In this document: positions 28,331 through 31,388 of the stretch, one piece after another
Numbering within the stretch: position 1 is the first letter of the stretch
Layout: each line of letters starts with the position of its first letter
IMG/VR virus record: IMGVR_UViG_3300033146_001021
Location: 1 to 41,386 of that record
DNA: 41,386 nt
Reading direction: 5' to 3' (one strand)
Source: a virus
Made by a program: the position numbers and the translations under genes
The notes under the pieces: model-generated
Told to the model about the DNA's origin: nothing
The model's input: only the letters and a program-made list of their open reading frames with translations
The model's database searches: none

Positions 28331-28359
28331 TTTACAAACTAGAAAAGACGTGTTATTAT
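28331..28359 (+). promoter_or_regulatory. Promoter of the replication module
   Basis: TTTACA (28331-28336), 17-bp spacer, TATTAT (28354-28359) preceded by GTGT. The same GTGTTAT-AT context occurs at the sigma-like gene promoter, as do the A/T-tract patches TTTAAACTTTTTTAAAC upstream. The ATG of the helicase is 26 bases downstream. Confidence 0.7.
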
Positions 28360-28385
28360 TACTTCTAAACAATAAAGGAATTATT

Positions 28386-31300
28386 ATGATAAAAGAAATT
28401 AAAGAAGAAATTAGAAGTAATAATACAGCATTGATTAATGCTTTATTAAAAGTCTATAATAATCAGACTTTTGATGAGAAACTATCTAAAACAACCAATA
28501 GGCAAAATGGGGTTGGTTTCAACGGAAGTGATTCTGTTTTTTGCTCTTCACTAGCTGAACAAGTATTAGATGGTAGAAGTCTATCAGATAAACAAATTGA
28601 ATGTTTAAAAAGAATAATGCCTAAATATGCAAGACAAATAGACATTAAAGATTTGTCTGAATTAAAAAAAGATATTAAAATACATAAAAAATCAAATAAT
28701 GAAAATTCAGATTCTGTAAGAGAGAAATTGAATGATGATGATTTTGTTATTTCATCATTATATATGCTGGCTGAAAATAGTCTTTTAAACAGCTTTAACA
28801 GGACTTTTTGTCTTTCTCTATATAATCAGCATAAAAGAACAAAAAACCTCTCAAACAAGCAAATGGAAGCTCTAAAGAAGTGTGTTAGACATCAAATTAG
28901 AGATATTATAGGCAATTTTTCTAAAATTAAGAAAATTAAAAGTGTAGTTAAGGAAGAAGTTGTTGAGATTGAGAATGAAATTGTATTGCAAAAAATTCAA
29001 CCAAAGAATATAAATACTGAATTATATGAATTTCAAAAAGAGGGTTTTAGTTTTTTGCAGTCTGTAAATGGAAAGGGCTTAATAGCAGATCAGATGGGAC
29101 TTGGGAAAGAACATATTAACGGAACTAAAATTTTACACAAAAACGGATGGAAAAAAATAGAAGATATTCGTGTAAACGATAAAATATATGGAAGAAGTGG
29201 AAATCTTATAAAAGTAAATGGAGTATTTCCGCAAGGAATTAAACCTATATACAGAGTCAGCTTCAGCGATAAAACTTATAGTGATGTAGGATTAGATCAT
29301 TTATGGTCTGTACTATCTTCTAATGACAGAAAAAGAGGTAAAGATTTTAGAACTCTAAAAACTAGAGATTTAATGGATGATTTATTTTATAATAATGGCT
29401 CTTCAAAATGGTCTATTCCTTTATGTGAACCGATCAATTACAGTAATAAAAATCTATTAATAGACCCTTATATTTTAGGTGTTTTGATTGCTGATGGGTC
29501 TTTGACTAGCAGTATACGATTTGTTCCTGGGGATAAAGAAGTTCCTGAAATAATACAAAACATATTAAAAGATAACAATGAATATTCATTGTCAGAGGGA
29601 GCTGATTACGGAACTTCTACTGCTTATAGTATAAAATACCATTTAAAAAATAAAAATCCTTATTATGATTATATAAGAAGTGTTAATTTGAATGTAACAG
29701 GTGAATATAAATTTATTCCTGAAAAATATTTATACGGCTCTATAAAACAACGTAAAGATTTATTAGCTGGATTATTGGATTGTGATGGAACTGTAAATGG
29801 AGCTAGAGTTAGATATAGTACATCATCACTAAAATTAGCAGATGATGTTGTGTATTTAGTACAATCATTAGGAGGAATGGCTGTTAAATCCCTAGTTGAG
29901 GGAAGAACTAGAGTTAGAAATGGGAAAATTTCTTATGAATTAGATAATTATAATATATCTATCAGACTTCCTTTTAATCCTTTCAAAAGAGATAGTAATA
30001 GAATAAAATGGAAAGTTAGTTCAAAATTAGTTAGAAGTATTGTGGGTATTGATTATTTGTGCGATGAAGAAGCTACTTGCATATCTGTAGATGCTAAAGA
30101 TAGACTTTACATAATAGAACAGTTTATTGTATCACATAACACTATTCAAGCAATATCTTATATAGCAGAGAATACAGACAAAAGACCTGTTCTAATTGTA
30201 GTTCCTGCTTCTTTGAAAATTAACTGGTTAAGAGAAATTGAAAAATTTATGATTGATATTCCTAGTGTAGAAATACTATCAGGGAAAAAACCTTATGAAA
30301 TAACTTCTGAAATAGTAATTATTAATTATGATATAATTTCTTCTTGGTTAAAACATTTAACAGAATATAAATTTAAAATAATTGTAATTGATGAAGCTCA
30401 CTACATAAAATCCGTTAAAGCTAAAAGAAGCAAAGCTGTAAAAGCTATAGCTAAGGAGATTCCTCACAGAATAGCTTTAACAGGAACTCCTATTTTGAAT
30501 AGACCTATTGAGCTTTTCAATATTGTTGATTTCATTAAACCTAATATGTTTAAGTTTTGGGGATTTGCTCAAAGATATTGTGGAGCTAGAAGAACTATGT
30601 ATGGTTGGGATTTTTCAGGAGCAACAAATAAATCAGAACTCCACGAAAAAATAAATAATAAAATTATGATAAGGAGAAAGAAAAGTGAAGTTTTAACTCA
30701 ATTACCTAACAAACAAAAAATTCCTTTGAATTTTGAATTAGATAATTATAATGAATACACAAAAGCTGAAAATGATTTTATTGCTTGGTTATATACTAAA
30801 AATGCTAAAAAAGCAGAAAAAGCAGAAAGAGCTGAAACTTTAGTTAAAATTGAATATCTAAAACAATTATCAGTCAAAGGTAAAATGAAATCTGTTGAGA
30901 ATTGGATAGATGATTTTTTAGAAACTGGAGAAAAACTTGTAGTATTTGCTACTCACACAAACATAATTAATTCTATTGTAGAAAGATATAAAGACATTTC
31001 CGTAAAAATTGATGGTTCTTGTTCAGGAGCAGATAGAGATTATTCTGTAAATGCTTTTCAAAATAATGATAAGATCAGAATAATCGTTGGTAATATTAAA
31101 GCTATGGGTGTTGGTTTAACTTTAACAAAAGCAAGTAATACTTTATTTGTAGAGTTACCGTGGACTCCAGGGGATTTACAGCAAGCAGAAGATAGGATTC
31201 ATAGAATAGGACAAGAGTCTGAATCAGTTAATATTTATTATGCTGTTGGAGTTGGTTCTATAGATGAAACCATTGTAGATATGTTGAATGAAAAACAAAA

Positions 31301-31388
31301 CAATATTGATGCTATTATTGAGGGTAAAACAGTCTCAAATACAAATATTATATCTAATTTAACAAAGACCTTGAAAAATAAAAAATAA
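28386..31388 (+). CDS. SNF2-type helicase precursor containing an intein
   Basis: 1000 aa precursor (656 aa spliced). ATG 28386 with AAAGGAAT is preferred to a GTG 36 bases earlier. Helicase motifs in order: Walker A GLGK (residues 238-241), interrupted by an intein (residues 242-585), continuing TIQAISYIAEN; LIVVPASLKINWLREIEK; DEAH at motif II (VIDEAHYIK); ALTGTPILNRPIEL; a C-terminal helicase lobe with GVGLTLTKASNTLFVELPW and QAEDRIHRIGQ. This matches SMARCAL1/SNF2-like phage translocases, probably fork-remodelling or recombination. The N-terminal 210 residues are unassigned. Without splicing the P-loop would be broken, so activity depends on it. Confidence 0.9.
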   Translation: MIKEIKEEIRSNNTALINALLKVYNNQTFDEKLSKTTNRQNGVGFNGSDSVFCSSLAEQVLDGRSLSDKQIECLKRIMPKYARQIDIKDLSELKKDIKIHKKSNNENSDSVREKLNDDDFVISSLYMLAENSLLNSFNRTFCLSLYNQHKRTKNLSNKQMEALKKCVRHQIRDIIGNFSKIKKIKSVVKEEVVEIENEIVLQKIQPKNINTELYEFQKEGFSFLQSVNGKGLIADQMGLGKEHINGTKILHKNGWKKIEDIRVNDKIYGRSGNLIKVNGVFPQGIKPIYRVSFSDKTYSDVGLDHLWSVLSSNDRKRGKDFRTLKTRDLMDDLFYNNGSSKWSIPLCEPINYSNKNLLIDPYILGVLIADGSLTSSIRFVPGDKEVPEIIQNILKDNNEYSLSEGADYGTSTAYSIKYHLKNKNPYYDYIRSVNLNVTGEYKFIPEKYLYGSIKQRKDLLAGLLDCDGTVNGARVRYSTSSLKLADDVVYLVQSLGGMAVKSLVEGRTRVRNGKISYELDNYNISIRLPFNPFKRDSNRIKWKVSSKLVRSIVGIDYLCDEEATCISVDAKDRLYIIEQFIVSHNTIQAISYIAENTDKRPVLIVVPASLKINWLREIEKFMIDIPSVEILSGKKPYEITSEIVIINYDIISSWLKHLTEYKFKIIVIDEAHYIKSVKAKRSKAVKAIAKEIPHRIALTGTPILNRPIELFNIVDFIKPNMFKFWGFAQRYCGARRTMYGWDFSGATNKSELHEKINNKIMIRRKKSEVLTQLPNKQKIPLNFELDNYNEYTKAENDFIAWLYTKNAKKAEKAERAETLVKIEYLKQLSVKGKMKSVENWIDDFLETGEKLVVFATHTNIINSIVERYKDISVKIDGSCSGADRDYSVNAFQNNDKIRIIVGNIKAMGVGLTLTKASNTLFVELPWTPGDLQQAEDRIHRIGQESESVNIYYAVGVGSIDETIVDMLNEKQNNIDAIIEGKTVSNTNIISNLTKTLKNKK
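29109..30140 (+). mobile_element. Intein with LAGLIDADG homing endonuclease
   Basis: 344-aa in-frame insertion within the P-loop, between Lys of GLGK and the Thr of TIQA. N-terminal splicing block begins E-HINGTKILHKNGWKKIED, with Glu in place of the usual Cys/Ser nucleophile. Block B is GLDHLWSVL (His64, Trp66). Two LAGLIDADG motifs follow at 123-131 (LGVLIADGS) and 219-227 (LAGLLDCDG). The C-terminal blocks are EEATCISVDAKDRLY (Cys324) and IVSHN, with +1 Thr. Absence of the residue-1 nucleophile, block-B Trp and block-F Cys identify class 3-like chemistry. The Ser342 before HN replaces the Thr of the canonical WCT triplet. The homing nuclease appears intact. Confidence 0.9.

Follow-up and report, generated by a model that had tools for sequence, protein, structure and literature searches.

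Class 3 inteins at P-loop sites

The junction between the Lys and Thr of the P-loop is a 'classic' site of intein insertion (PMC5050341). Class 3 inteins have a working definition in which Cys at block F:4 is present and Cys at residue 1 is absent, while Thr at block G:5 is not required (PMC7891396). In the MchDnaB1 intein this Thr is part of a Cys-His-Thr triad (PMC7664689). An intein in the Snf2 protein of Deinococcus radiodurans is described as class 3 in the work cited as reference 10 of PMC3196547, with detection of a block F branched intermediate.

We analysed a window of 41,386 bases (30% G+C), the whole of a tailed-phage record in which terminase, portal, head-morphogenesis and tape-measure genes are followed by a replication cluster. 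It carries an intein that splits the P-loop of a phage Snf2-family helicase, very likely belongs to this class, and is probably spliced out and able to home. The likeness to the D. radiodurans intein is one of description only, in that both are class 3 and reside in an Snf2 protein. Inteins of the WCT family in Brevundimonas phage Domovoi, Erythrobacter phage L02 and Vibrio phage K412 agree with the window intein in length, splicing blocks, LAGLIDADG domain, K/T P-loop site, Cys F:4 and Trp B:12, and those of Domovoi and L02 also lie at GLGK/T of a helicase. They are about 33-37% identical to it and differ at both ends, with THN instead of SHN at the C-terminus and Met, Gly or Ala instead of Glu at residue 1. 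The closest relatives, on two IMG/VR contigs (L016 and L017), are 51-52% identical and occupy the same GLGK/T site of an Snf2-type helicase. Both have Thr at G:5, unlike the Ser of the window intein, and L016 starts with Glu as the window intein does. MchDnaB1 (6rix, 6riy) was matched by profile and by fold and has a similar class 3 splicing fold, but it is a mini-intein without endonuclease, resides in DnaB and has Thr at G:5. The window intein is a fresh example of a well-known type, set apart mainly by a conservative exchange of Ser for Thr, and it leaves the definition of class 3 unchanged.

An intein in a phage helicase gene

The helicase ORF encodes 1012 amino acids without interruption (Table 1). 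Its two helicase domains (SNF2-rel_dom, E-value 1.2e-31; Helicase_C, E-value 9.7e-13) are separated by a segment that matches LAGLIDADG_3 and Hom_end_hint, as well as Hom_end when searched alone. The helicase motifs are intact in both exteins. An in-frame ATG at position 28386, downstream of the listed GTG, is preceded by AAAGGA; this ATG is more likely than the GTG to be the real start of the helicase.

Table 1. Coordinates of the helicase gene, its exteins and the residues of the intein.
Feature	Position	Strand	Remark
Snf2-type helicase precursor gene, including intein	28350..31388	+	GTG start as listed
N-extein, ends ADQMGLGK (Walker A up to Lys)	28350..29108	+	compared with intein-free homologues
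Class 3-type intein, 344 aa, with LAGLIDADG endonuclease domain	29109..30140	+	
Intein residue 1, Glu, codon GAA	29109..29111	+	not a usual nucleophile
Block B His64-Leu-Trp66 (B:10, B:12)	29298..29306	+	
Asp129, endonuclease motif 1 (LGVLIADG), presumed metal ligand	29493..29495	+	
Asp226, endonuclease motif 2 (LLAGLLDCDG), presumed metal ligand	29784..29786	+	invariant in 173 sequences
Cys324, block F:4, presumed first nucleophile	30078..30080	+	invariant in 173 sequences
Block G Ser342-His343-Asn344 (G:5 to G:7)	30132..30140	+	Ser in place of usual Thr
Thr+1, Walker A Thr, presumed second nucleophile	30141..30143	+	
C-extein (TIQAISY..., DEAH box, QAEDRIHRIGQ motif VI)	30141..31385	+	

Translation of the intein yields a first residue E and a final SHN between the flanks ADQMGLGK and TIQAISY, so that the Walker A motif is split exactly at GLGK/T. 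Three intein-free phage homologues have an uninterrupted GLGKT, which fixes both boundaries exactly and makes Glu the first residue of the intein. The original prediction had placed the insertion at this point with a Glu start, and had named His64-x-Trp66, Cys324 and an SHN-Thr end with Ser342 in place of Thr; all of these were found at the positions given.

An AlphaFold2 model of the intein, built with 62 sequences, had a mean pLDDT of 93.6 and a pTM of 0.92. Foldseek matched this model to PI-SceI (E-value 3.6e-21), TliVMA and I-DmoI, as well as to the class 3 MchDnaB1 intein 6riy, with a TM-score of 0.75 by target length. Using the intein as a tblastn query, we found matches in 765 of 50,697 phage records, 723 of which covered 80% of the query or more. 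Given this number of matching records and the E-value of 6.8e-124 against a profile built from the relatives, the resemblance to inteins is not due to chance. Elsewhere in the window, no further intein of class 3 was found. It is extremely improbable that the segment is some ordinary domain inserted in frame, or an artefact of the reading frame, as it combines an intein fold with block motifs and exact P-loop junctions, and its relatives, found in unrelated P-loop proteins, number in the hundreds.

Class 3 membership and residue 1

Alignment-based scans contributed 160 further loci. Junctions were readable in 172 relatives, or 173 sequences with the window, a sample picked by query similarity and two endonuclease patterns that does not represent an unbiased survey of class 3. 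Pattern scans of viral contigs found no close relatives of the intein or of the C-extein alone. All 172 relatives have Cys F:4, His B:10, His G:6 and Asn G:7, and 168 of them have Trp B:12. In the alignment with these relatives, Cys324 of the window intein falls on the invariant Cys, and His64, Trp66, His343 and Asn344 also match conserved columns. Residue 1 is Glu and hence not a Cys, Ser or Thr nucleophile, and the closest relatives all have Cys F:4 and THN. At G:5, the Thr of the strict WCT signature is replaced by Ser342. Judged by sequence, membership of class 3 is well supported, though only by relatedness and by the working definition in the literature, not by the strict WCT signature, and the predicted class 3-like character is borne out as a statement of lineage.

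The original prediction also regarded the Glu start as an extension of the class. Residue 1 varies freely across the relatives: Ala is the commonest (122/173, window included), and Ser, Glu, Gly, Leu, Asp, Phe, Val, Pro, Met, Cys and Gln also occur. Glu is found in eight of the 172 relatives besides the window, including the closest, L016 (52% identity). As the window intein shares Glu1 with these eight, its start is ordinary and we rejected it as a novelty. In two further loci (L020 and L065), residue 1 is Ala after the junction was corrected by one residue, and not Glu.

An intein without a nucleophile at residue 1 might also follow a class 2-like route, since this feature is shared with class 2. 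Thr+1 would then attack the N-terminal junction directly and Cys324 would be dispensable. We consider this very unlikely: Trp B:12 and Cys F:4 are both present, Cys F:4 is conserved family-wide, and its replacement by Ala abolished splicing and cleavage in three class 3 inteins (PMC5222942).

We favour a class 3 route, modelled on the class 3 inteins that have been studied. The intein in the P-loop would keep the Snf2-family helicase disabled until splicing. Cys324, activated by His64 and with Ser342 in place of Thr, would attack the Lys-Glu peptide bond, after which the N-extein would be held on Cys324 as a block F thioester. Attack of Thr+1 on this thioester would give a second branched intermediate, Asn344 would cyclise with the assistance of His343, and an O-N acyl shift would link GLGK to T and restore the P-loop. 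Glu1 would have no chemical part in these steps.

Endonuclease domain and mobility

The endonuclease motifs had been predicted to be intact. Both LGVLIADG and LLAGLLDCDG are indeed kept, along with Asp129 and Asp226, which we take to be metal ligands as in PI-SceI-type endonucleases. The fold and a match to PF14528 (E-value 1.2e-08) also identify a LAGLIDADG endonuclease. This domain probably cleaves intein-free helicase alleles, into which the element would then be copied.

The suggestion that the element may be mobile gained support from phylogenetic analysis. In a tree of 21 helicase-borne inteins, the window intein forms a clade with those of L016 and L017 (support 100/100), whereas the C-exteins reject this clade (p-AU 0.0045). 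Grouping the L017 intein with the inteins of the two loci nearest to L017 in the extein tree was rejected far more strongly. The extein topology test alone is moderate evidence, because the clades were named only once the trees were known and the extein tree places L017 on a long branch. The sequence identities agree with it: the inteins of L017 and the window are 51% identical, their C-exteins only 25%, and the L017 C-extein is among the most distant of 20 relatives, with the lowest bit score. Together, these comparisons indicate that the intein has moved between divergent helicase genes and is probably mobile, and they offer a clear example of transfer in which the helicases are much less alike than their inteins. 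The window intein is probably a functional, homing class 3 intein at a classic P-loop site.

Serine at block G:5

Thr occupies G:5 in 172/172 relatives, and Ser occurs only in the window among the 173 sequences; the Ser342 codon, TCA at 30132-30134, is known from one assembled contig. We scanned viral contigs with a pattern that retained the same block F-G skeleton and encoded Ser by TCN codons, which identified two other inteins (L176 and L177). The same scan with AGY codons for Ser found none. As a control scan for Thr recovered at least 120 inteins, the ratio of 2 to at least 120 gives only an upper bound on the share of Ser. Both Ser carriers are class 3-like inteins on IMG/VR contigs that start with Ala, and they reside in a PhoH-like protein (L176) and another P-loop protein (L177). 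The endonuclease motifs are eroded in L176 and the domain is absent from L177, whereas the window intein has kept its motifs. Since neither is specially close to the window intein, the change from Thr to Ser at G:5 probably arose more than once.

In a published set of 1701 class 3 inteins, 4.6% have a residue other than Thr at G:5 (PMC7891396). With this published deviation and the Ser shared by L176 and L177, the view in the original prediction that a WCS triplet would extend the class is not supported. Mutation of Thr G:5 in class 3 inteins can have minimal effect (PMC5222942), and the AceL NrdHF intein still splices with T144A, about tenfold more slowly (PMC7891396). By analogy with the MchDnaB1 triad, the Ser hydroxyl could serve as that of Thr does there. 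Because Ser G:5 was found in 0/172 relatives, reduced activity of the window intein is conceivable. The block F residue before Leu-Tyr is Arg in the window and most commonly His elsewhere (78/173), an exchange that could slow C-terminal cleavage.

Ser342 and Arg332 might therefore mark a decaying intein, with lowered splicing and a helicase that is partly or wholly inactive in the phage. The otherwise invariant Thr G:5 among the sampled relatives would fit such decay, and the class 3 intein Arth_1007 provides a published precedent (PMC3196547). However, Arth_1007 is a pseudogene that lacks Cys F:4 and His B:10 (PMC3196547), both of which the window intein has. The frame of 1012 amino acids is also open, the helicase motifs, remaining catalytic residues and endonuclease motifs are intact, and Ser retains the hydroxyl. 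Decay is accordingly unlikely. We lean towards a naturally working Cys-His-Ser triad, in which an active class 3 intein exchanged Thr for Ser within an endonuclease-bearing lineage. If so, the third member of the triplet has been altered repeatedly in nature, as L176 and L177 also carry Ser, possibly with changed splicing rates. Such a natural Ser variant, rare at this position of the catalytic triad, is useful for gauging the importance of the Thr side chain in class 3 splicing.

The L176 intein (positions 685-1395 of IMGVR_UViG_3300046010_014007) has 237 amino acids and lies in the P-loop of the PhoH-like protein. In L177 (positions 252-1127 of IMGVR_UViG_3300050162_000081), a single frame holds two class 3-type mini-inteins of 148 and 141 amino acids, separated by just three extein residues in a P-loop (PRQ-intein-TGK-intein-TVCALSLT). 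The first has a WCS triplet and the second a WCT triplet. Variation at another triplet position was seen in Lactococcus phage LW81 (L012, positions 286-1347) and Staphylococcus phage CF5 (L014, positions 292-1347), whose class 3-type inteins have Ile for Trp at B:12 and retain Cys F:4 and THN. Residue 1 of the LW81 intein is Cys.
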